Source: a virus. Taken from it: 24,764 nt of DNA. The stretch lies in the IMG/VR virus record IMGVR_UViG_3300036402_000229, positions 1 through 24,764 of that record, one strand, 5' to 3'. Below are positions 7,144 to 19,472 of this stretch, piece by piece. The first letter of the stretch is position 1. Each line of letters begins with the position of its first letter. The position numbers and the translations under genes are program-made. The notes under the pieces are model-generated. The model ran no database searches. It saw only the letters and a list, made by a program, of their open reading frames with translations, and was not told the DNA's origin.

Positions 7144-8478
7144 ATGCCCGACCAGACCATGCGCGACCAGCTCGCATCGATCCGCGAGTCGCTCACCACG
7201 ACCCGTGACCTGAAGGTCGAGAAGGTCAAGGAGCGCGACGCGGCCAAGCAGGCGTTCGCGAAGACCGACCTGACCGACGTCGAGAAGGTCACCGAGTCGG
7301 CGGAGTTCAAGGCGGCCGAGCAGGCCGTCGCGGCCGTCGGCGAGCTCGACGACAAGATCAACGACCTCACGGTCGCCGAGGCCAAGGTCATGGCCATGCT
7401 CGGCGAGCCCGCGGCGGCGCCCTCGAGGGACGGCAACGGCCCCGAGGACGCCATCGCGGCCAAGGCGGCCATGGGCCGCTGGAACCCCGACACCGTCCTC
7501 CAGGGCGACAAGTACAAGGCGTTCATCGAGTCCGGTCTCGCCAACAACTCCAAGGCGAAGTTCGGCGCCATCCAGCTCGGGCAGCTGGCCACCCGCGAGC
7601 AGGTCGCGGCGTTCATGTCGCCGCGAGCCGACGTCGGCTCCGACAACATGGTCGGCGCGACGGCAGCCGATCGGCGAGGGTTCGTGCTGCCGAACCTGAA
7701 GCCGCTCACGCTGCTGGACCTCGTGCCGGTCGGGACCACGGACTCGGACATCGTGCAGTACGTCCAGATCCTCACGATCCCGGAGGCCGCGGCCGAGACG
7801 GCGCCGGGCGCCCTGAAGCCCGAGGCGTCGTTCACGACCGAGGACAAGGACGCCCCGGTCCGCACGATCGCCGCGTGGCTGAAGGTGCGCAAGCAGGCGC
7901 TCCGCGACATCGGCACGCTGCGCGCGATCCTCGGGCAGCTGCTGCCCTACGACGTGCGCCGCCGGATCGAGTCGCAGATGCTCGCCGGCAACGGCGTCGG
8001 GCAGAACCTCGAGGGCATCTACAACATGGACGGCGTCCACCACGCGGACTTCGTGGCTGGCGACAACACGGCCGACTCGATCCTTCGGGCGATGACGCTG
8101 ATCATCCTCAGCGACGGCGACCCGAACTTCACGGCGCTGCACCCCCTCACCGGCCAGGACCTCATGCTCATGCGCGAGAACCAGTCCGCGCGGACGGGCC
8201 AGTACCTGTACGGGTCGCCCGCCGTGATCGCCGCCCCGTCGATCTGGGGCCTGGCGATCACCAAGAACCGCGTGGTCCCCGAGGCCGAGCCGCTCGTCGG
8301 CGACTCGATGGCCTCGACGCTGCTGTTCCGCGAGGGCGTCAACACCCTCGTCAGCGACAGCGACCAGGACGACTTCGTCCGCAACCGCGTGACGATCCTG
8401 GCCGAGGCCAGCGTCGCCTACCCGGTCTGGCGGCCGACGTCCTACGCCATCGGCGCCACCGACGAGAGCGCGTCCTGA
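7144..8478 (+). CDS. Major capsid protein (HK97 fold) with N-terminal delta-like coiled coil
   Basis: 444 residues. Residues 1 to about 90 are a charged helical coiled coil (LASIRESLTTTRDLKVEKVK and onward), the usual delta domain that acts as a built-in scaffold and is removed by the prohead protease encoded just upstream. The HK97-fold body follows: DRRGFVLPNLKPLTLLDLVPVG, EDKDAPVRTIAAWLKVRKQALRD (spine/E-loop region), LPYDVRRRIESQMLAGNG and the C-terminal FREGVNTLVSDSDQDDFVRN with AYPVWRPTSYAI. The cleavage site probably falls in the linker around residues 90-125. Start is fixed by GGAGGAGG seven bases upstream. The gene is followed directly by the glycosyltransferase cassette. Confidence 0.93.
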   Translation: MPDQTMRDQLASIRESLTTTRDLKVEKVKERDAAKQAFAKTDLTDVEKVTESAEFKAAEQAVAAVGELDDKINDLTVAEAKVMAMLGEPAAAPSRDGNGPEDAIAAKAAMGRWNPDTVLQGDKYKAFIESGLANNSKAKFGAIQLGQLATREQVAAFMSPRADVGSDNMVGATAADRRGFVLPNLKPLTLLDLVPVGTTDSDIVQYVQILTIPEAAAETAPGALKPEASFTTEDKDAPVRTIAAWLKVRKQALRDIGTLRAILGQLLPYDVRRRIESQMLAGNGVGQNLEGIYNMDGVHHADFVAGDNTADSILRAMTLIILSDGDPNFTALHPLTGQDLMLMRENQSARTGQYLYGSPAVIAAPSIWGLAITKNRVVPEAEPLVGDSMASTLLFREGVNTLVSDSDQDDFVRNRVTILAEASVAYPVWRPTSYAIGATDESAS

Positions 8479-8568: not shown

Positions 8569-9228
8569 ATGGGCTTCACTTCGCGCTCCTCCGTCGCCGT
8601 GCTCATCCCGGTGCTCGCGCGTCCGCATCGCGTCGCGGCGCTACTCGAGTCGCTGGCCGCTGCGACCCGTAGCCCGTACCGGGCGCTGTTCATCTGCGAC
8701 CCGCACGACCACGCCGAGCAGCAGGCCGTGCGCGACGCCGGCGCCGAGGCGCTGATCGTCGCCGGCAACTACGCCCGCAAGATCAACCAGGGGGTCGCGG
8801 CGAGCACCGACCCGCTGATCTTCCTCGGCGCCGACGACCTGCACTTCCACCCCGGCTGGCTGGCCCACGCTCGCCAGCATCTCGCGCCCGGGATCGGCGT
8901 CGTCGGCACCAACGACCTCGGCAACCCGCGCGTCGTCTCCGGCCGGCACGCCACCCACTGCCTCGTCACCCGTGCCTACGCCTCGCTCGGCTGCATCGAC
9001 CAGCCAGGCCAGCTGCTGTGCGAGGCGTACGCCCACAACTTCGTCGACGACGAGCTCGTGGCCACCGCCCGGAGGCGCGAGGCCTGGGCGTTCGCCCGCC
9101 AAGCCGTCGTCGAGCACCAGCACCCGCACTGGGGCAAGGCCGACATGGACGCCACCTACGAGACCGGACTCGCCAGCTTCGAGGCCGACCGTGAGCTGCA
9201 CCGCACGAGGATCCCGCTGTGGACGTGA
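8569..9228 (+). CDS. Glycosyltransferase-like protein 1 (GT-A fold, GT2-like)
   Basis: 219 residues from ATG 8569; a GTG at 8530 would add 13 residues that look non-coding. The N-terminus SSVAVLIPVLARPHRVAALL is the first Rossmann strand and helix of GT2-type glycosyltransferases. The metal/nucleotide-sugar site is a DxD-like ADD at D89-D90 in FLGADDLHFHPGW. C-terminal residues include a histidine-rich stretch (VVEHQHPHWGK) and a short helix. There is no signal peptide or membrane segment, so it would act in the cytoplasm on a soluble acceptor. It overlaps the next gene by 10 bp. Donor and acceptor are unknown; a virion protein is suggested by context only. Confidence 0.8.
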   Translation: MGFTSRSSVAVLIPVLARPHRVAALLESLAAATRSPYRALFICDPHDHAEQQAVRDAGAEALIVAGNYARKINQGVAASTDPLIFLGADDLHFHPGWLAHARQHLAPGIGVVGTNDLGNPRVVSGRHATHCLVTRAYASLGCIDQPGQLLCEAYAHNFVDDELVATARRREAWAFARQAVVEHQHPHWGKADMDATYETGLASFEADRELHRTRIPLWT

Positions 9229-9815
9229 CCGTCGTCGTGGCCACGTTCGGCGGCGCCGAGTGGACCGAGCTCGCGCAGTCCCGCGCGATCCCGTCCGGTG
9301 CGCTGCAGGCGCCTGTCGTCTACGAGCACGGCGAGACCCTCGCCACGGCGCGCAACGCGGGCGCCGAGCGGGCCACCAGCGAGTGGCTGTGCTTCCTCGA
9401 CGCCGACGACGAGCTCGCCCCCGGCTACATGAGCGCCATGGCCGCGGCCGACGGCGACCTCCGCGCTCCGGCCGTGACGTACGTCCGCAACGGCCGACCG
9501 GGCACCCCGAAGGTGTGGCCAGCGATGCCGCTGACGGAGGGCAACTACCTCGTCATCGGGTCGCTCGTGCGCCGCGAGATGTTCCTCGCCGTCGGCGGCT
9601 TCCGCGAGTACAGCCTCTACGAGGACTGGGATCTCTGGCAGCGCTGCTGGCTCGCCGGCGCCGAGATCGTCCAGGTCCCCGACGCCGTCTACATCGCGCA
9701 CGTCCGGCCGCAGTCGCGCAACCGCGCACCCACCCACGCCGAGCAGACCGCGATGCACCACGAGATCCGGCGCGCGAACTTCCCGGAGCTCTACGAGGCG
9801 GAGGCCGCGGCGTGA
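9219..9815 (+). CDS. Glycosyltransferase 2 (GT2 family)
   Basis: 198 residues starting at GTG 9219 inside the end of the previous gene. It is a near-minimal GT2 domain: first strand VTVVVATFGG, the nucleotide-binding ETLATARNAGAERATSEW helix, and a canonical DxD in FLDADDELAPGY (D61-A62-D63-D64). The acceptor-side motif GGFREYSLYEDWDLWQRCW follows, whose E-D pair is typical of the catalytic base region in GT2 enzymes. No membrane segment is present. It ends in a GTGA overlap with the next gene. This is the most canonical glycosyltransferase of the cassette and gives the best support for an active sugar-transfer role. Confidence 0.9.
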   Translation: MDVTVVVATFGGAEWTELAQSRAIPSGALQAPVVYEHGETLATARNAGAERATSEWLCFLDADDELAPGYMSAMAAADGDLRAPAVTYVRNGRPGTPKVWPAMPLTEGNYLVIGSLVRREMFLAVGGFREYSLYEDWDLWQRCWLAGAEIVQVPDAVYIAHVRPQSRNRAPTHAEQTAMHHEIRRANFPELYEAEAAA

Positions 9816-10489
9816 GCACCTGTCTCGTCGTCGTCACCGATGGCCGCCGCGACTGCCTCGCGCAGACCATGCGCAGCGCCACCGAGGCGCTCGGCCTGGC
9901 CACCTTCGACGAGCGGATCATCGTCAACGACAGCATCGACCACGACTACGGACGCTGGCTCGAGCTGCAGTTCGGGGGCGGCTTCCGGATCCTGCACCCC
10001 GACGCGGGCAAGCGCGGGTTCGCCGGCGCCGTTCAGGCCGGCTGGGCGGCGATCCGGGCCATCCCCCGCGCCGAGCTCGTGTTCTGGCTGGAGGACGACT
10101 TCACCTTCAACGCGCCGCTCGACCTCACCGCGATCGCCCAGGTCCTCGACCAGCAGCAGCACCTCGCTCAGATCGTGCTCAAGCGCCAGCCGTGGAGCAC
10201 CGCGGAGATCGCCGCGGGCGGCATCGTCGAGATGCACCCCGACGACTACATCGAGCGCACCGACGGCGCCCGCGTGTGGACGGAGCATCGCCGGTTCTGG
10301 TCGACGAACCCGTCGATGTTCCGTGCCGACACGTGCTGGCGCGACTGGCCGGCTGGGCGACAGAGCGAGGGGATCTTCACCCACGAGCTGCTCGCCGACG
10401 CGGACACGCGCTTCGCGTTCTGGGGCGCCAAGCACGCCGAGCCGCTCGTCACCCACATCGGCGACATCAGGGCCGGCCATGGCTACTGA
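9812..10489 (+). CDS. Glycosyltransferase-like protein 3
   Basis: 225 residues from GTG 9812 (GTGA overlap). The fold is GT-A-like: STCLVVVTDGRRDCLAQT strand-helix, IIVNDSID second strand, RGFAGAVQAGWAAI helix, then FWLEDDFTFN with E94-D95-D96 where the DxD normally lies. Later segments SMFRADTCW and a C-terminal GAKHAEPLVTHIGDI fit an acceptor-binding half with a His near the end. The divergent EDD motif makes the exact family less certain than for its neighbours. It overlaps the methyltransferase gene by 11 bp in another frame. No membrane helix is seen; it is probably cytoplasmic and acts with the rest of the cassette. Confidence 0.72.
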   Translation: MSTCLVVVTDGRRDCLAQTMRSATEALGLATFDERIIVNDSIDHDYGRWLELQFGGGFRILHPDAGKRGFAGAVQAGWAAIRAIPRAELVFWLEDDFTFNAPLDLTAIAQVLDQQQHLAQIVLKRQPWSTAEIAAGGIVEMHPDDYIERTDGARVWTEHRRFWSTNPSMFRADTCWRDWPAGRQSEGIFTHELLADADTRFAFWGAKHAEPLVTHIGDIRAGHGY

Positions 10490-11114
10490 CACCTACGGTC
10501 ACGAGTTCTTCGACACCATCCGCCACGGCTGCCAGCGCTCCGCCGCGGCCGTCGCGCCCATCGTTTATCGAGTCGCACGGCCCAGCGCCGTCATTGACGT
10601 CGGCTGTGGCGAGGGATGGTGGGGCGAGGCGTTCGCGGCAGCCGGCGGCTGCCTCGTCCTCGGCGTCGACGGCGCGTACGCCAACCCCGTCATCCCCCAC
10701 GAGACCGTCGACCTCGAGCAGCGCATCCCCGAACTCGGCCGGTTCGACCTGGCCGTCTGTCTCGAGGTCGCCGAACACCTGCCGCCCGAGCGCGCGGCGA
10801 CCTTCGTCGAGGATCTCTGCGAGCTCGCGCCCATCGTGCTCTTCTCCGCCGCGATCCCTGGCCAGGGCGGCACCGGCCACCTCAACGAGCAGTGGCCCGC
10901 CTACTGGGTCGAGCTCTTCGCCCGCCACCACTACGCCTGCTCCGGCGCGCTGCGCTGGTCGATCTGGGACGACGACCGCGTCGAGAACTGGTACCGCCAG
11001 AACCTCATGGTCGCGGCCGCGGACCCCGCCGCTCTGCCCGAATGGTTCGACACGCCCCTGGCCCCCATGTGGCCGGTCGTGCACCCGGTGCTCTACGACG
11101 CGCGGCGGTCATGA
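10479..11114 (+). CDS. SAM-dependent methyltransferase (class I)
   Basis: 211 residues. Motif I is VIDVGCGEGWWGE (residues 38-50), the glycine-rich SAM loop. The acidic residue at the end of strand 2 is in LVLGVDGAYA, and the strand 4 motif is FDLAVCLEVAEHLPPE, typical of Methyltransf_11/23-type small-molecule or sugar methyltransferases. The segment GQGGTGHLNEQWPAYW is also seen in methyltransferases of polysaccharide clusters as I recall them. It lacks the NPPY or DPPY motif of adenine-N6 DNA methyltransferases, so DNA is an unlikely target. Sandwiched between glycosyltransferases and coupled to both, it probably O-methylates a sugar of the glycan they make. Confidence 0.85.
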   Translation: MATDTYGHEFFDTIRHGCQRSAAAVAPIVYRVARPSAVIDVGCGEGWWGEAFAAAGGCLVLGVDGAYANPVIPHETVDLEQRIPELGRFDLAVCLEVAEHLPPERAATFVEDLCELAPIVLFSAAIPGQGGTGHLNEQWPAYWVELFARHHYACSGALRWSIWDDDRVENWYRQNLMVAAADPAALPEWFDTPLAPMWPVVHPVLYDARRS

Positions 11115-11866
11115 GCACCATCGCGATCGCGATGGTCAAGGACGAGGCCGACATCATCGAGCACACCGTCACCCGGATGCTCGACCAGGTCGACGCCGTG
11201 ATCGTCTCCGACAACGGCTCGACCGACGGTACCCGCGAGATCCTCGAGCGCCTCGACGTCACCGTCCTCGACGACGCTGACCCCGCCTACTACCAGTCGG
11301 CGAAGATGACCGCGCTCGCCGCCATGGCGCGCGAACACGGCGCCGACTGGGTGATCCCGTTCGACGCCGACGAGGTCTGGTACTCCCCGTTCGGCCGGAT
11401 CGCCGACGTCCTCCCCTCCCTGCCCAGCGCTGCGGCCGCCGCCGCCGTCTACGACCATGTCGCGACCGGCGAGGACCCCACCGGCCTGGACCCGATCGAG
11501 ACGATGGGCTGGCGCCGGCGCGATCCCGTCCCGCTGCCGAAGGTCGCATGCCGGGCGGCTCTGCACGTCACGATCCGCCAGGGCAACCACGGCGCGAGCT
11601 ACCTCCCGGCCGAGCCGGTCGACGGGCAGCTGGTGGTCAGGCACTTCCCGTATCGGTCGGTCGAGCAGTTCGTCTCGAAGGTGCGCAACGGCGCCGCCGC
11701 CTACAAGGCCACCGACCTGCCCGAAGACCACGGCGCGCACTGGCGGCAGTACGGGCAACTGCTCGACGCGCACGGGCCCGCGGTGATCGAGGAGATCTTC
11801 CACACCTGGTTCTGGGCGGCCGAGCCCGCCGGCGACGACACGCTGATCTACGACCCCTGCCCGTGA
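11111..11866 (+). CDS. Glycosyltransferase 4 (GT2-like, Glyco_tranf_2_4 type)
   Basis: 251 residues from ATG 11111 in an ATGA overlap. The first strand is STIAIAMVKDEADIIEHTV, the characteristic opening of this glycosyltransferase group, followed by VIVSDNGSTDGTREILE (the nucleotide-binding SDNxSTDGT motif, about residues 33-47). The DxD is in VIPFDADEVWY (D85-A86-D87-E88). A C-terminal HFPYRSVEQFVSKVRNG segment is also typical of this group, where it precedes an Arg/Lys-rich helix. There is no membrane helix. The next gene starts in a GTGA overlap. Donor sugar cannot be told from sequence. Catalytic motifs are complete, so it should be active. Confidence 0.9.
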   Translation: MSTIAIAMVKDEADIIEHTVTRMLDQVDAVIVSDNGSTDGTREILERLDVTVLDDADPAYYQSAKMTALAAMAREHGADWVIPFDADEVWYSPFGRIADVLPSLPSAAAAAAVYDHVATGEDPTGLDPIETMGWRRRDPVPLPKVACRAALHVTIRQGNHGASYLPAEPVDGQLVVRHFPYRSVEQFVSKVRNGAAAYKATDLPEDHGAHWRQYGQLLDAHGPAVIEEIFHTWFWAAEPAGDDTLIYDPCP

Positions 11867-12552
11867 GCGTCGCCGTCGTCGTGCCGTGGCGCGGCGGGTG
11901 CCCGCACCGAGAACGCGCGCTGGAGTGGATCACGGCCCGATACCAGGCCGAGCATCCCGCATGGCATCTCGTGGTCGCCGACGGGCCGCGCGGCACCCCG
12001 TGGGTCAAGGCCGAGGCGGTCATGCCGGCGGCCCTCGCGACCAGCGTCGAGCTCCTCGTGATCGCCGACGCCGACGTCTGGTGCGACAGCATCGCCGACG
12101 CCGTCCGCGCGGTCCGCGCCGGCTGGGGCTGGGCGATCCCGCACCGGCAGGTTCACCGCCTCACCGAGCCCGCCACCACCCTGCTGCTCGGAGGCGCCGA
12201 CCCGCTCACGCTCGCCGTCACCGAACCGCTCTACCGCGGCACCCCTGGAGGCGGCCTCGTCGTTCTCCCCCGCTCCACGCTCGAGCGTGTTCCGCTAGAC
12301 CCGCGCTTCGCTGGCTGGGGCGGTGAGGATCAGGCCTGGGGCGCGGCGCTCACCACGCTCGCAGGGCCGGCTTGGCGTGGAGCACAACCCCTCATCCATC
12401 TTTGGCACCCGCCGCAGCCGCGCATGAGCCGAGAGCGCGGCAGCGACCGCAGCGAGCAGTTGCGTGACCGCTACCTCGCGGCCCGCAACAGGCGAAGCGC
12501 GATGCGCGCCCTCGTCAACGAGATCCCCGCCACGCCGCACGTCGGCGTCTAA
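11863..12552 (+). CDS. Glycosyltransferase 5 (GT2/GT7-C-like)
   Basis: 229 residues from GTG 11863. The first strand is VSVAVVVPWRGGCPHRERAL. DxD is D69-A70-D71 in VIADADVWCDS. The strongest family marker is FAGWGGEDQAWG (G151-W152-G153-G154-E155-D156), matching the GWGxED acceptor/catalytic motif of polypeptide GalNAc-transferase and beta-4-galactosyltransferase C-terminal (GT7-C) domains. After it comes HLWHPPQPRMS, a His-rich metal-binding stretch seen in the same group, then an Arg-rich tail. No membrane segment. It is the last enzyme of the cassette; the fibre-associated gene starts 17 bp later with its own ribosome binding site. Confidence 0.88.
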   Translation: MSVAVVVPWRGGCPHRERALEWITARYQAEHPAWHLVVADGPRGTPWVKAEAVMPAALATSVELLVIADADVWCDSIADAVRAVRAGWGWAIPHRQVHRLTEPATTLLLGGADPLTLAVTEPLYRGTPGGGLVVLPRSTLERVPLDPRFAGWGGEDQAWGAALTTLAGPAWRGAQPLIHLWHPPQPRMSRERGSDRSEQLRDRYLAARNRRSAMRALVNEIPATPHVGV

Positions 12553-12569: not shown

Positions 12570-12980
12570 GTGGCCACACGCCTCGTCTTGATGATCCAGC
12601 CCGAGGGCGAAGACCCTCGTCCGATGGAGCCAGGCGACTACCAGGATCTCGTGGTGGCCGCCATCGCCGCGCTTGCGGCCGAGCTGCCCGCCTCGCCCGA
12701 AACCGGCCTCGCCAAGGACAGTGTCCTCCAGGCCGTACGCGATCGGCTCCCGGCCGCTCTCGCAGGCGGCCGCCTCAAGGCCGAGGTCGTCAACCCAGCC
12801 GGCGTGCCGGTCTCCGTGGAAAGCAGCAGCGTCGACTACACGCAGACGCTCGTCAGCTCGGGCGCCGCGGCCGGGCTGCCCGCGACCCGCACCTACACCT
12901 CCGGGCCGGAGGCGGGCAAGACGACGACCTGGACCTACGACCCGAGCACGGGCGGCGTGCTGGCGAAGGTGACAGCGTGA
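12570..12980 (+). CDS. Small fibre-associated structural protein, unrecognised
   Basis: 136 residues from GTG 12570, preceded by AGGAG (12556-12560) at a 9-bp spacing. The N-terminal half is acidic and helical. The middle LPAALAGGRLKAEVVNPAGV resembles a short linker motif frequent in phage virion proteins, and the C-terminus (TRTYTSGPEAGKTTTWTYDP) is beta-rich, Thr/Ser-rich and ends in a small domain typical of fibre-adjacent proteins. A stop-start GTGA overlap couples it to the SGNH fibre, so it may be an adaptor or chaperone for that fibre. The Ser/Thr-rich C-terminal half is also a plausible O-glycosylation acceptor. No homologue is recognised with certainty. Confidence 0.7.
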   Translation: MATRLVLMIQPEGEDPRPMEPGDYQDLVVAAIAALAAELPASPETGLAKDSVLQAVRDRLPAALAGGRLKAEVVNPAGVPVSVESSSVDYTQTLVSSGAAAGLPATRTYTSGPEAGKTTTWTYDPSTGGVLAKVTA

Positions 12981-14569
12981 TCGACGACGTCGACATCCTG
13001 GCCCAAGCGGGTGTTCGGGCTCGTCGTGATCTGAAGGCGATGCGCGCCTCCGTGATCGACGGGTACGGCTCCTCGCTGCTGCAGTCCTCGGACTCCGGCA
13101 CCGTGTATGTGCCGCGGCTGAGCGAGCGGTTCATGAGCCGCCTGGCGGCCGCGTTGGGTAACGCGCAAGAGCGCAACTTCGGGGTCGGGTCGACGGAGTT
13201 GATCCACGACGGTGCGACGCAGGGTTGGCCGCTGGCGTGGAAGCACACCGTCACGAATCTCCCGGGTTCCTCGACCGGGTACGCCCTGAAGAACGCCGGC
13301 CTGTTCCGGCAGCTGTGCCTGCTCAAGCACGCGTTCAACGACTGGCAGAAGAAGGGCAGTGACACGGCGATGGCCGGCACCTGGCGGGAGGGTGTGCGGG
13401 CGTGGATCGAGATGATGCGCGCGCAGTACGCGTTCCAGGCCAGCGACGCGATTTTCTCTGGTGGGCTGTCGGGCTGGACGGCGCAGGGCGTCAACGCCAG
13501 CTATGGCGGCTACTTCTACTCCCGCGGCACGGCGGGGTCGGTGGTCGCGACGCTCGGGTCTACGAATCCGGGGGGCCGGTTCACGTTCTACGCCCTCGTG
13601 AAGTCCGATGAGCGGTGGAGGGGCCGCGCGAAGATCGGCGCCGGCGCGTACGTCTCCACGCTCGACGCGACCGTGCTGGGTGTCGCGGGGTGGCTGACCG
13701 CCGTGTGCATCCCCGTCGACATCCCGGCTGGCGCCACGACCGTCACGCTGGACATCGACAACGTCACGGGCGGCATCCGGTTCCTCGGCGCCACCCTCAA
13801 CGCGACGGGCCACGGCCTCGAGCCGCTCGTGGTCATGATCGGGTCTCCGGCGACACCGTCGATGCCGTGGAATGGCGACGCGACTGGCTGGACGACGGCG
13901 CACAAGAACACCGCGAATCAGACGATGAGCGACCTGGCCGCCAGCTACGACGCCCGGGTGCGGTTCGTGTCGCTCGACTCGCTGGAGTCCGGCGGCGTCG
14001 GACGCCCCGAGCTCTTCGCCGATGACGTCCACTACGACTCGACGGGCAACGGCGAGATCGAGGAGCTGCTGCTCGCCGAGATCGCGCGGGCCGGCATCCC
14101 GCAGAACATCGGGTCGCCGTCGCGGATCTCGGCGGCGTCGAACACGTGGCCGGAGTGGAGCGAGCCGCGCGGCAAGGTCGCGATCGACTCCGCCGGCGGG
14201 GTGGCGTACTTCGCGAACGGCATCGACTACACCACGAAGGTGGCGTTGTGGGTGCCGGTCGGCGCGCCCGTCCCGGTCACGAAGACCGCGGATTACACGT
14301 TGGTGTTGCAGGATCAGGGCGGCCTGATCGAGATGAACTCCGCGTCCGCGCATGTGGTCACGGTGCCGCCGAACAGCTCGGTGGCGTTCCCGATCGGGAC
14401 GAGCATCGATCTCGTGCGCTACGGCGCGGGGACGCTCACGGTGACGCCGGGCGCCGGAGTGACGATCGACTCGCCGGCGGGGGTGCTGACGGTCGGCCCG
14501 CAGTATGGGCGCGCGCGGCTGTACAAGCGCGCGACGAACGAGTGGGTCCTGACCGGGAACCTGGCGTGA
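12977..14569 (+). CDS. Tail fibre / receptor-binding protein with SGNH hydrolase domain
   Basis: 530 residues from GTG 12977. An SGNH/GDSL-type hydrolase is indicated by the block I equivalent GYGSSLLQSSDS (probable nucleophile S33) and the C-terminal DxxH motif D349-D-V-H352 in FADDVHYDSTGNGEIEELL. Between them, about residues 150-280, is a beta-sandwich insert (GWTAQGVNASYGGYFYS, TTVTLDIDNVTGG) that looks carbohydrate-binding. Residues about 435-530 form a Thr/Val-rich beta module (DYTLVLQDQGGLIEMN, FPIGTSIDLVRYGAGTLTV) common at phage fibre C-termini. The likely role is to bind and de-esterify host surface glycans. Its place between head genes and tail genes is unusual; fibres normally follow the baseplate. 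Confidence 0.8.
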   Translation: MIDDVDILAQAGVRARRDLKAMRASVIDGYGSSLLQSSDSGTVYVPRLSERFMSRLAAALGNAQERNFGVGSTELIHDGATQGWPLAWKHTVTNLPGSSTGYALKNAGLFRQLCLLKHAFNDWQKKGSDTAMAGTWREGVRAWIEMMRAQYAFQASDAIFSGGLSGWTAQGVNASYGGYFYSRGTAGSVVATLGSTNPGGRFTFYALVKSDERWRGRAKIGAGAYVSTLDATVLGVAGWLTAVCIPVDIPAGATTVTLDIDNVTGGIRFLGATLNATGHGLEPLVVMIGSPATPSMPWNGDATGWTTAHKNTANQTMSDLAASYDARVRFVSLDSLESGGVGRPELFADDVHYDSTGNGEIEELLLAEIARAGIPQNIGSPSRISAASNTWPEWSEPRGKVAIDSAGGVAYFANGIDYTTKVALWVPVGAPVPVTKTADYTLVLQDQGGLIEMNSASAHVVTVPPNSSVAFPIGTSIDLVRYGAGTLTVTPGAGVTIDSPAGVLTVGPQYGRARLYKRATNEWVLTGNLA

Positions 14570-14769
14570 GTCGCTGCGACAAATGCGGCGATGAGGGACC
14601 CATTCTGATCGAGGGCCCACGCGATGCGGCGCGTATCGAGGTTCCGTGCTCCTGCCATATCGGAGTCGGCGGCTCGCTACTGGTCCCGACTCTGCCGCCG
14701 CTGTCTATCCGATGGTGTCGGCGAAGAAGTTCTCGAACTGCTCCACGGCGCGCGGGACGCTGCGCTTGA
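14566..14769 (+). CDS. Small zinc-ribbon-like protein, uncertain 3' end
   Basis: A GTG in a GTGA overlap with the fibre stop opens a 67-codon frame. The first 31 residues carry C4-x-x-C7 and C28-x-C30-H31, a plausible zinc-binding ribbon. The last 22 or so residues (Arg/Ser-rich) run antisense over the 3' end of the minus-strand gene that ends at 14705 and look like shadow coding, so the original gene may have been truncated when the minus-strand island was acquired. An inverted repeat CGGCGGC/GCCGCCG (14667-14673 and 14694-14700) lies inside it. Function unknown. Confidence 0.45.
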   Translation: MSRCDKCGDEGPILIEGPRDAARIEVPCSCHIGVGGSLLVPTLPPLSIRWCRRRSSRTAPRRAGRCA

Positions 14770-14899
14770 GGACCGGAATGCCGTTGCGCCGGCACTCCTT
14801 CGCCTCCTGAGCCGTCACCTCCCGGGCGGTCTGATCGTTGTCCTCGACCAGCGCCCACGACACGTAGCCATCGCTCATCCACACCCGCTCAAGATGCAT
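14705..14899 (-). CDS. Unrecognised 64-residue protein, third gene of antisense island
   Basis: ATG at 14899 reading leftwards to TAG at 14705. It starts MHLERVWMSDGYVSWALVED and continues as an acidic/amphipathic helix-rich protein with an aromatic end (VEQFENFFADTIG). Its start overlaps the end of the upstream minus-strand gene by 11 bp, so the two are co-translated. A longer frame from 15067 exists but overlaps most of the neighbour and has Ser/Arg-rich shadow composition. No family is recognised. Gene density, overlap and coding composition are what support it. Confidence 0.65.
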   Translation of the reverse strand: MHLERVWMSDGYVSWALVEDNDQTAREVTAQEAKECRRNGIPVLKRSVPRAVEQFENFFADTIG

Positions 14900-15161
14900 C
14901 GCTGACCCCCGGTGCCTCTTCCTCATCGTCGGCCTCGCGGAGCATGCCGTCGAGGAACGCATCGATCTCTTCGGCCGGGACGTCGCCCCGGAGGGCATTC
15001 GCCACCGATCGTGCGCGGCCAGCGAGGCGCTGCAGCTCGTCGGTTCGCTTGGTGATCGCGCCGCCATCCATGATCGCCGCCGCGACGACGATCTGATCAG
15101 CGGCGCTGTCCAAGATGTTGAACGCGATGACTGTGCGCTCTCGTTGGCCGGGAGGCTTCAC
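14889..15161 (-). CDS. Unrecognised 90-residue acidic helical protein, second gene of antisense island
   Basis: Begins at a GTG (15161) in a GTGA overlap with the preceding minus-strand gene. The product opens MKPPGQRERTVIAFNILDSA. Its centre is hydrophobic and helical (ADQIVVAAAIMDGG), followed by TDELQRLAGRARSVANALRG and a strongly acidic tail (EADDEEEAP). It looks like a small helical regulatory or structural protein rather than an enzyme; the TKRTDELQRLAG region could form a coiled coil. No membrane segment is convincing. I recognise no family. Confidence 0.68.
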   Translation of the reverse strand: MKPPGQRERTVIAFNILDSAADQIVVAAAIMDGGAITKRTDELQRLAGRARSVANALRGDVPAEEIDAFLDGMLREADDEEEAPGVSDAS

Positions 15162-15394
15162 TGCGCGACCGGATCGGGGTCCGCGACATCGGGCTCCTGG
15201 TCATCCTCAGACGGTGATCCTGTGATCAGGGCGACGTAGCGCGGGTTGATGAAGACCAGCTCGTCGCCGCGACGGGCCTGGACGAGACTCCCATCCGTGT
15301 CCTTCGTGTCGGTGAGCCTGTGAGCGATCTTCTTCACCGATGCGTCGACGGTGATCTCGGCGCCATCGGCGAAACGGATCGTGGTGGTGGCCAT
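15158..15394 (-). CDS. Unrecognised 78-residue beta-rich protein, first gene of antisense island
   Basis: ATG at 15394 is preceded on the minus strand by GAGGA at about 8 bp. A longer frame to 15562 adds a Ser/Arg-rich shadow and was rejected. The protein starts MATTTIRFADGAEITVDAS and carries a Gly/Asp-rich turn then ELVFINPRYVALITG, a strand pattern of a small beta-barrel (SH3- or Sm-like, similar in style to FlbD-type or LytTR-like small domains). The tail is Asp/Pro/Glu-rich. It heads a three-gene operon opposing the late operon, so it is probably expressed separately, perhaps in the lysogen. Function unknown. Confidence 0.7.
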   Translation of the reverse strand: MATTTIRFADGAEITVDASVKKIAHRLTDTKDTDGSLVQARRGDELVFINPRYVALITGSPSEDDQEPDVADPDPVAQ

Positions 15395-15545
15395 GACGGG
15401 GTCCTCGTTTCCTTCGGCGTTCGAATCGGCGCGAGCATCGTACGTGACTAAACCGCTATGCGTGAGTAGCAGCCCCCCGCTCGGCGCCGCATCCGCTTCC
15501 CATCCGTCCCGATGCCGCCCGCTTCGTTGGGCGCGGAGATGACGC
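15395..15545. promoter_or_regulatory. Divergent intergenic region with candidate minus-strand promoter
   Basis: The 151-bp gap separates the leftward island from the rightward connector gene and includes an unusually AT-richer stretch (about 15436-15470). On the minus strand TACGAT (15442-15437) makes a fair -10 hexamer about 45 bp upstream of the island's first ATG. No good -35 is present at 16-18 bp (TCACGC is the best), so activation or an extracytoplasmic-type sigma factor cannot be excluded. On the plus strand GGAG of GCGGAGATG (15533-15541) serves the next gene. No terminator was recognised. Confidence 0.35.
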
Positions 15546-15971
15546 ATGTCAGAGATCTTCATCGAGCTGCCCGAGTCCAGCCCCGTGTGGGCGCCTTCTG
15601 CAGACCAGGTCGCGCGGGTGGTGCCGAACTACACGCGCGGGGGGTTCGACGACGACGGGCCGCAGGCGGGTGCCGAACAAGGTGGCTTCACCGACTCGAC
15701 ATCACCGCCGCTGGATCACGTGGAGGCGCTGATCGCGACCGTCTGCGAGGAGATCATCGGCCTGGTGGTCGTCGAGATCCCGACGCGCTGCCACGGGCTG
15801 GCGCGCAGCTGCGCTATCCACGGCGTGGCCGCCGCCATCTCGACGGGGAAGATCCCGGCCCAGACCGACGACGCGCGCGGCGAGACACAGGGGCACGTCG
15901 CCGCGTACCTTCGGGACCTGGAGATGCTGCAGAAGACGGCGCCGCAGCCGACCGCGCTGCGTGTCACCTAA
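15546..15971 (+). CDS. Head-tail connector (adaptor) protein
   Basis: 141 residues from ATG 15546 with GGAG about 8 bp upstream. The segment GGFTDSTSPPLDHVEALIATV (split here as GGFTDSTSPP then LDHVEALIATV) matches the GxFTDxTxPTxxxVExLI signature common in small head-tail adaptors of actinophages, and the rest is a four-helix pattern (HGLARSCAIHGVAAAI). Such proteins dock on the portal ring and present a surface for tail attachment. It restarts the structural operon after the antisense island. The start MSEIFIELP is nearly repeated at the start of the sheath gene. It ends in a TAATG overlap with the next gene. Confidence 0.72.
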   Translation: MSEIFIELPESSPVWAPSADQVARVVPNYTRGGFDDDGPQAGAEQGGFTDSTSPPLDHVEALIATVCEEIIGLVVVEIPTRCHGLARSCAIHGVAAAISTGKIPAQTDDARGETQGHVAAYLRDLEMLQKTAPQPTALRVT

Positions 15972-18379: not shown

Positions 18380-18784
18380 ATGCCGTACACGAAGCGCAAC
18401 TGGATCTGGCATCTCCTGGTCGACGGCATCGACTACGGGTTCTGGGCCGGCAAGGAGGGCGGCGAGTCCGACTCCGACGGCGACATCTACCCGGACTGGG
18501 ACGGCGACGTCACGCTCGGCGGCAAGCCGACGCGCGGCGACATCACCCTCAAGAAGCTCTACCGGGAGCAGGTCCACGCCCAGTTCCGCGACCTTGACAG
18601 TCGCACCGCCACCGGCAAGTTCGTGCTCACGGGCACCCCCACCGGTGACGACGGCGTGGCGTGGGGCAACCCGATCGTCTACACCGGCACGCTGAAGGGC
18701 GTCAAGCCGCCCGACACCGACAAGGGCTCCAGCGATGGCGGCGAGCTCGAGCTCACGCTCAAGCCCGACACCCGGCTCGCCTGA
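18380..18784 (+). CDS. Tail tube protein
   Basis: 134 residues from ATG 18380; AGGAGG (18363-18368) sits 11 bp upstream. The protein starts PYTKRNWIWHLLVDG and is beta-rich with the Gly/Asp-rich loops of tube proteins. Motifs include DGDVTLGGKPTRGDITLKKLYREQ (loop and strand pair) and GELELTLKPDTRLA at the C-terminus. Its place directly after the sheath is the universal order in contractile tails. It forms the inner tube through which DNA passes. Residues 26-45 are very acidic (GGESDSDGDIYPDWDGD) and may bind calcium. Its stop overlaps the chaperone ATG. Confidence 0.85.
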   Translation: MPYTKRNWIWHLLVDGIDYGFWAGKEGGESDSDGDIYPDWDGDVTLGGKPTRGDITLKKLYREQVHAQFRDLDSRTATGKFVLTGTPTGDDGVAWGNPIVYTGTLKGVKPPDTDKGSSDGGELELTLKPDTRLA

Positions 18785-19293
18785 TGGAAGGCCTGCCCGC
18801 GAACATCACGGTCGACGGCGACGACGAGTCGCCGTCGATCCTTCCGCCCGGGCCCGCGGCGCCCGCGGCCACCCCGGAGCAGGTCTCCGAGGCGGTCGAC
18901 GGGTCGCTGACGGGGCGCCTCCGCGCGGTCGGCGCGCAGCTGCGCAAGACCAAGACGGAGGACTTCCCGATCCCGGAGACCCCGCTCGTGCTGCGCGCAC
19001 GCGCGATCCGCGACAGCAAGTCGGACAACATCCGCAACGAGCTGCTCGTGATCAAGGCGACCGCCGGGCTGTACCTCGCCGACGAGGACGATCCCGACGA
19101 CCCCGAGAAGTACACGCCGATCCCCGGGTGGGGCAAGGAGCTCGCCGACCTGCTCGACATGCGCGTCGAGAAGGCCACCGACCTGGTGAAGCTCGTGTTC
19201 GACAACCCGGTCCGGCTGCAGGTCTTCTCGCTCGAGCTCGTCGCATGGATGGCCGGGCGCTCGAAGGAGGACGAGCAGGCCCTGGGGGAATAG
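18784..19293 (+). CDS. Tail assembly chaperone, short (0-frame) form
   Basis: 169 residues from ATG 18784 in an ATGA-type overlap with the tube stop. The N-terminus is Pro/Ala-rich and disordered (residues about 15-50), followed by a helical body (RAIRDSKSDNIRNELLVIKA) and an ELADLLDMRVEKATDLVKLV segment. It lies between tube and tape measure, the conserved place for tail assembly chaperones, which bind the tape measure during tube polymerisation. It ends with the sequence CTG GGG GAA TAG, and a second coding frame continues through and past this stop. The protein is the equivalent of lambda gpG or P2 gpE. Confidence 0.82.
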   Translation: MEGLPANITVDGDDESPSILPPGPAAPAATPEQVSEAVDGSLTGRLRAVGAQLRKTKTEDFPIPETPLVLRARAIRDSKSDNIRNELLVIKATAGLYLADEDDPDDPEKYTPIPGWGKELADLLDMRVEKATDLVKLVFDNPVRLQVFSLELVAWMAGRSKEDEQALGE

Positions 19294-19472
19294 CGGAGGC
19301 GGCCCCGGAGGTCACCGAGGCCGTCAACGCCGTCCGCCTGCAGATGGACTACCGGCCCCTCGTGGGCCTCACCCCCGATGACGTCGGCACGCTCGTCGAG
19401 CGCGTGATCGCGCGCGTCGTCCTCGAAGCCGCCGTCGTAGCGCACAACGACGACGTGCGCGCCTCCTCCTAG
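18784..19472 (+). CDS. Tail assembly chaperone, -1 frameshift extended form
   Basis: A -1 slip at 19284-19290 would join the 0-frame protein to a second frame that encodes GIAEAAPEVTEAVNAVRL, then MDYRPLVGLTPDDVGTLVE, RVIARVVLEAAVVAHNDD and ends at the TAG at 19472, adding about 60 residues for a 229-residue product. This matches the G/GT pair of lambda and the E/E' pair of P2. The downstream frame has no start or ribosome binding site of its own but has strong coding bias, which is why a fusion is preferred. The exact junction residue (G-G) is inferred from where the heptamer slips. Confidence 0.75.
19284..19290 (+). promoter_or_regulatory. Programmed -1 ribosomal frameshift site GGGGGAA
   Basis: The 0-frame codons are CTG GGG GAA TAG; the heptamer G-GGG-GAA can re-pair in the -1 frame as GGG-GGA. 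The 0-frame stop follows immediately. A possible stem CGGCC/GGCCG with a 14-base loop lies a few bases downstream (about 19303-19326). The site separates the short and extended chaperone forms. It is not the textbook G-GGA-AAG of lambda, so efficiency is unknown. Confidence 0.65.

Follow-up and report, generated by a model that had tools for sequence, protein, structure and literature searches.

The stretch of DNA analysed here (the window) is the IMG/VR virus record IMGVR_UViG_3300036402_000229, of 24,764 bases and about 70% GC. It contains the genes of a terminase, a portal protein, an S49 protease, an HK97-type major capsid protein (MCP), a tail sheath, a tail tube and a tape measure. This gene content indicates that the phage is contractile-tailed, and the record is probably a fragment of its genome. 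As the record yielded no phage integrase, a temperate life style lacks support in this fragment. The element under study is a block of six open reading frames (ORFs), located between positions 8569 and 12552 and named, in gene order, GT1, GT2, GT3, MT, GT5 and GT6 (Table 1). An initial annotation, made from the sequence alone, had described six genes overlapping by 4 to 11 bp right after the major capsid gene. This description is accurate: the six ORFs are present at these positions, the successive overlaps are of 10, 4, 11, 4 and 4 bp, a codon-usage gene caller returns exactly the same genes and the block starts 90 bp downstream of the gene of the HK97-type MCP.

Table 1. Features of the cassette and of its vicinity in the window
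Feature	Position	Strand	Basis
HK97-type major capsid protein (MCP), predicted glycan acceptor, ends ...GATDESAS	7144..8478	+	PF05065 2.7e-24; phrog_10; C-terminal tag analysis
MCP C-terminal Ala-Ser codons, predicted acceptor tag -[GA]-Ser-COOH	8470..8475	+	cassette-linked MCP counts
GT1, predicted GT-A glycosyltransferase, cassette signature gene	8569..9228	+	phrog_14945 1.7e-7; AlphaFold2 model
GT2, predicted family-2 glycosyltransferase, DADDE motif	9219..9815	+	PF00535 1.2e-9; Che8 gp108 / Redno2 gp17 profile matches
GT3, predicted GT-A glycosyltransferase, EDDF motif, conserved C-terminal G-x-G-Y	9812..10489	+	phrog_3047 4.6e-17; AlphaFold2 model; alignment
MT, predicted S-adenosylmethionine (SAM)-dependent methyltransferase, motif VDVGCGEG, optional cassette member	10479..11114	+	PF13489 1.1e-8
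GT5, predicted family-2 glycosyltransferase, DADE motif, protein-glycosyltransferase-related	11111..11866	+	PF13704 9.4e-14; PDB profile matches
GT6, predicted galactosyltransferase-like GT-A enzyme, Che8 gp109 homologue	11863..12552	+	phrog_1721 3.1e-10; B4GALT7 1.2e-6 by profile
Small ORF, 136 amino acids, function unassigned, not conserved with the cassette	12570..12980	+	homologue in no locus examined
Fibre-like protein, weak SGNH/GDSL region, virion-protein C-terminal module; adjoins the conserved block, outside it	12977..14569	+	

The block is predicted to encode five GT-A-type glycosyltransferases and one SAM-dependent methyltransferase, since the family searches, two AlphaFold2 models and the profile searches of the PDB agree. 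The curated cut-off of Pfam is passed by GT2 and GT5 (glycosyltransferase family 2) and by MT (Methyltransf_23); GT1, GT3 and GT6 are above no such cut-off. In PHROGs, the five transferases match glycosyltransferase or galactosyltransferase families (1.7e-7 for GT1, 4.6e-7 for GT2, 4.6e-17 for GT3, 1.5e-10 for GT5 and 3.1e-10 for GT6). The GT-A fold is deduced from AlphaFold2 models for GT1 and GT3, and by profile only for GT2, GT5 and GT6. The model of GT1 (mean predicted local distance difference test score, pLDDT, of 93.9) matches the solved GT-A enzymes WrtF, GpgS and SpsA, and the model of GT3 (mean pLDDT of 94.4) matches TarP and SpsA. The best PDB profile matches of GT5 are GmaR (8e-10) and SunS (6.5e-4). 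In the alignment of the relatives of each transferase, the DxD-like motifs show no or almost no variation. None of the six proteins displays a clear membrane helix, the highest 19-residue hydropathy value being 1.64 (GT6). The structure predictions and profiles thus confirm the enzyme classes of the initial annotation, which had also read DxD-type motifs and an absence of membrane helices from the sequence.

A scan of viral contigs with the GT1 alignment detected at least 134 relatives in IMG/VR, of which 80 loci were kept. Gene calling covered these loci as well as GT5- and GT3-related ones, and yielded 77 non-redundant GT1 loci. At least three different cassette genes are present in 61 of these 77 loci and the order of the window, GT1-GT2-GT3-(MT)-GT5-GT6, is found in 57 of the 61. 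The complete five-transferase core is present in 40 loci, and all six genes are present in eight, window included. MT occupies a recurrent slot between GT3 and GT5, and its presence in only 16 of the 77 loci rules it out as a fixed member of the cassette. In the relatives, the genes upstream of GT1 encode the scaffold, the major head protein and the head-tail adaptor, and those downstream of GT6 encode the head closure protein, the tail terminator, a protein of the neck and the major tail protein. The flanking head proteins are spread over distinct PHROG families (283 and 10, and 1328 in a reduced cassette); the position of the cassette is therefore conserved and the backbone is not. An exception is the group formed by L139, L145, L152, L168 and others, where the block follows portal/MuF-type genes; these four loci also contain extra unidentified ORFs between the transferases. 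At a threshold of 1e-5, GT1 matches none of 50,697 records of cultured phages. The cassette also occurs in an actinobacterial metagenome assembly and in a Parafrankia soli prophage (strain NRRL B-16219, locus L038), and the hosts that can be named are therefore actinobacteria. On the basis of these loci, the putative capsid-linked glycosylation cassette is real and widely distributed across uncultured phages.

The gene order indicates that the cassette was gained as a block in the lineage of the window phage, because the closest cassette-less relatives run from the MCP gene nearly straight into the neck genes. The 13 closest relatives of the window MCP (45-50% identity) have no cassette wherever the downstream DNA is present. 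L196 and L198 have sheath, tube and neck genes in common with the window; in these two loci, two small genes separate the MCP gene from a homologue of the window gene 15546-15971. The same interval in the window contains the six cassette genes, two fibre-like ORFs and three leftward genes. The survey of relatives for gain or loss as a block, which the initial annotation had suggested, points to gain. The annotation had also linked the cassette to an SGNH fibre gene downstream, and this part is not supported: beside the other cassettes among the loci examined, no homologue of either fibre-like ORF occurs. They look like a separate acquisition, since they are absent beside other cassettes. The larger one matches PF13472 at 5e-4, below the cut-off, and its C-terminal part matches phrog_18179 and phrog_8780 (virion or tail proteins); its sole other match among the loci examined is in L280 and concerns the C-terminal module only. 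As the ORFs 12570-14569 are without cassette-linked homologues, this fibre was discarded as the substrate. The rightward late operon is broken by three short leftward genes (14705-15562, minus strand), placed after the fibre-like gene and before the neck genes, with homologues in none of the loci examined.

A first reading of the proteins encoded next to the cassettes revealed a terminal serine in 38 of 40 cassette-adjacent MCPs and in 18 of 19 major tail proteins. The proportion is 1 of 31 for the scaffolds, proteins which leave the capsid, and 15% for the other genes on the same contigs. Among 46 cassette-linked MCPs, 45 end with Ser, and the residue at position -2 is Gly (30 sequences) or Ala (11 sequences), that is 41 together. 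The entropy of the MCP tail is 0.15 bits at position -1 versus 2.4-3.5 bits at positions -3 to -12, the upstream positions varying freely. Two further scans fetched the cassette-bearing and cassette-less relatives of the two main MCP families. Terminal Ser is found in 26 of 27 MCPs with a cassette versus 8 of 27 without in one family, in 18 of 19 versus 3 of 31 in the other, and in 26 of 27 versus 7 of 23 major tail proteins. The MCP and the major tail protein of cassette phages end with -[Gly/Ala]-Ser far more often than those of their cassette-less relatives, which is a new observation. The tag is carried by unrelated proteins (MCP and major tail protein) of the same genomes and occurs in at least three MCP families. 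Among 36 records of cassette-less relatives, a PF00535 enzyme was found in one, and the MCP of this record ends with -AGS. The proteins of cassette-bearing phages are otherwise often only 25-30% identical, yet their terminal residue is strongly conserved; this conservation is independent of the comparison with and without cassette. The window MCP itself ends with -SAS.

Two other origins of the tag were rejected. An artefact of overlapping stop and start codons is ruled out, as 60 of 60 tagged MCPs have a TCC, AGC or TCG codon followed by the stop, with no start overlap. A Ser/Thr-rich tail acting as the signal is ruled out as well, the Ser/Thr content of the 30 C-terminal residues being unremarkable. 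Terminal Ser is also above background in the head closure proteins (12 of 28) and tail terminators (11 of 29) of cassette phages, for example L008:6570-6917 and L008:6920-7333 with their homologues, which may be secondary acceptors.

In mycobacteriophages, the subunits of the capsid and of the tail tube are reported to bear glycans at their C-termini (PMC12619734). The virions of Che8, Corndog and Myrna are reported as glycosylated, Che8 gp110 and Corndog gp38 being essential for this modification (PMC12363180). Catdawg (Corndogvirus), with its gp36 in place of gp38 for comparison, was used as a proxy for the Corndog genus. The MCP of Che8 ends with -NKTGS and its major tail protein with -YSDGS; its scaffold, adaptor and stopper have no such ends. 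The corresponding ends of the MCP and tail protein are -LVGS and -KGDS in Catdawg, -ETAS and -EAGS in Brujita, and -DTSA and -AAGS in the Gordonia phage Kudefre, and the tail protein of Redno2 ends with -VGLS. No -GS ends were found in the Myrna region examined, but the capsid gene was not identified there.

Several observations weigh against a cassette that glycosylates the capsid protein at this tag. The tail tube of the window ends with -RLA and its sheath with -QEA; the MCP is therefore the sole carrier of the tag in the window. Some cassette-less phages carry a terminal Ser, and in the window's own MCP family this is the case for 3 of 6 cassette-less relatives, so that the tag is uninformative there. 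The Fisher tests ignore relatedness, whereas in the trees the cassette state changes independently no more than 4-5 times per MCP family; the pair tests all point the same way (0.9 to 0 and 2.9 to 0) but are not significant. The MCP of Redno2 ends with -APSF despite five transferases. In the F1 phages DeadP (L366) and Flathead (L365), the capsid and tail proteins end with -GS although the Che8 gp109 gene is reduced to a remnant, DeadP being here the adverse case. Finally, no homologue of Che8 gp110 was found in the cassette, the best hhalign probability being 9% (GT3).

The terminal Ser of some cassette-less relatives and the small number of independent changes, as well as the fibre-like genes directly after the cassette in the window, would also suit a reading where the virion protein modified is the neighbouring fibre or some other surface protein, the terminal Ser of the capsid protein serving for assembly or being merely inherited. 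We consider this unlikely, as the block is conserved without the fibre ORFs, the tag is shared by MCPs and unrelated major tail proteins in at least three MCP families, and it fits the C-terminal glycosylation reported for mycobacteriophages such as Che8. The capsid protein, and not the fibre, is the predicted target in the window.

Phage glycosyltransferases frequently alter the polysaccharides of the cell surface. The enzymes of the cassette could act likewise on the envelope of the host or lysogen, leading to serotype conversion or superinfection exclusion; by fold or profile, GT3 and GT2 are similar to enzymes of teichoic acids and lipid-linked glycans, and distant GT5 relatives are located in chromosomal loci with other glycosyltransferases. 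However, the block contains no flippase, polymerase or membrane-anchored transferase and its proteins look soluble, contrary to the Gtr-type serotype-conversion cassettes with their flippase and membrane glucosyltransferase genes. In dozens of phages it sits within the series of genes that leads from head to tail, and an envelope role leaves the C-terminal tag unexplained. Homologous cassettes in non-phage loci had been named in the initial annotation as a sign of such a role; the loci where the intact cassette was detected are those of phages or prophages, and the distant chromosomal GT5 relatives are without the remaining cassette genes. An envelope role thus appears very improbable. Still less credible is the hypermodification of DNA, where the transferases would glycosylate modified bases. 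A precedent exists, phage glycosyltransferases hypermodifying DNA with diverse glycans having been reported (Pyle et al. 2024, cited in PMC12619734). Against it, the cassette is located among virion genes, and a gene of the thymidylate synthase/hydroxymethylase family was found in none of 24 cassette-bearing records, several of which exceed 60 kb and which may be partial.

The most probable interpretation, which we hold with good confidence, is that the six genes form a virion glycosylation cassette, responsible for O-glycosylation of the capsid protein at its C-terminal serine. It is favoured because of the synteny with capsid genes, the gain as a block, the C-terminal Ser tag and the homology with the systems of the Che8/Corndog type. 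The same four lines strongly support the dedicated pathway that the initial annotation had proposed for a methylated oligosaccharide on a virion protein. With less assurance, we lean towards the view that -[Gly/Ala]-Ser-COOH is a dedicated acceptor signal, placed on unrelated virion proteins, read by the phage glycosyltransferases and travelling with a mobile cassette of five transferases with or without the methyltransferase. The cassette would probably be expressed late, together with the capsid genes. The soluble GT-A enzymes would then use nucleotide sugars to build, in the cytoplasm, a short O-linked oligosaccharide on the newly made capsid protein, the presumed linkage being to the C-terminal Ser within -[Gly/Ala]-Ser-COOH. 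In the relatives with non-contractile tails, the C-terminal Ser of the major tail protein would be a second acceptor. Further transferases would lengthen the glycan and the methyltransferase would cap or decorate one sugar, the presumed benefit being a shielding of the particle. The enzyme activities, the identity of the sugars and the order of transfer are here predictions from sequence.

GT3 or GT6 is favoured as the candidate initiator of the chain, because reduced cassettes built on GT3 and GT6 keep the tag; the reduced cassettes without GT5 (L035, L036 and L037) are such tagged loci. GT5 is the alternative candidate, because it resembles the flagellin O-GlcNAc (O-linked N-acetylglucosamine) transferase GmaR. 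As sole initiator it was rejected: the loci with GT3 and GT5 and without GT1 and GT6 (L022, L027, L029 and L031) have no tag, and L036 and L037 are tagged without GT5. In the same 24 cassette-bearing records, an enzyme of the nucleotide-sugar epimerase type is encoded in only 6, so the sugars are probably drawn from the host in most cassette phages.

Two further features were noticed elsewhere in the window. The gene 18784-19293 and the small ORF behind it, which ends at 19472 shortly before the tape measure gene, look like a pair of tail assembly chaperones and may involve a frameshift. An HNH endonuclease gene (1811-2140, PF01844) lies shortly before the probable small terminase gene, an arrangement that is common in cos-type phages.

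To our knowledge, glycosylation of phage virions has been documented for only a handful of mycobacteriophages. If our interpretation is correct, it would be common in uncultured phages, in the form of a swappable cassette beside the capsid genes, and a C-terminal tag of two residues would allow sugar-coated phages, and the coated proteins in each, to be recognised from sequence. Identifying the acceptor signal would come down to a simple mutational test, and a C-terminal Ser acceptor would be an unusual and useful site for the enzymatic labelling of proteins.

By analogy, the predicted pathway of the cassette is a form of the virion glycosylation already known in mycobacteriophages. The systems of the Che8/Corndog type likewise combine phage-encoded glycosyltransferases and a methyltransferase with -GS or -DS ends of the MCP and tail protein. 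The Che8 gp109 family is homologous to GT6 (profile 99.2%, E 7e-20), as is Catdawg gp35. The N-terminal half of Che8 gp108 is a GT2 homologue (profile 85%), and its C-terminal half is homologous to the separate annotated O-methyltransferase of Catdawg. The glycosylation genes of Catdawg (gp33-36) are in the capsid region as in the window, whereas those of Che8 (gp108-110) are at the far end of the genome. These systems differ from the cassette by three transferases instead of five, by the absence of clear homologues of GT1, GT3 and GT5, and by methyltransferases that have no profile match with MT. The initial annotation had judged five transferases and a methyltransferase more elaborate than known for such phages. 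The cultured mycobacteriophage Redno2 (Omegavirus, gp14-22) contradicts this, with five glycosyltransferases, a methyltransferase and a kinase directly after its major capsid gene. Its gp19 is a GT6 homologue, its gp17 a GT2 homologue (profile 96%) and its gp22 is weakly GT5-like. It differs from the cassette by another gene order, extra kinase and protease genes, the absence of GT1 and an MCP without terminal Ser. The kinase is annotated as a Ser/Thr kinase and is located within the run of post-capsid glycosyltransferases (L370:5288-5782). In Caudovirales GX15bay (MK557849), homologues of GT2-GT3-GT5 (43-46% identity) are part of a series of transferases accompanied by a methyltransferase; contrary to the cassette, this series is upstream of the terminase, has no GT1 and contains other transferases. 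Among solved structures, the best profile matches of GT5, the flagellin transferase GmaR and the SPbeta glycosyltransferase SunS, act on proteins or peptides, although the match is limited to the GT-A core of about 100 residues.

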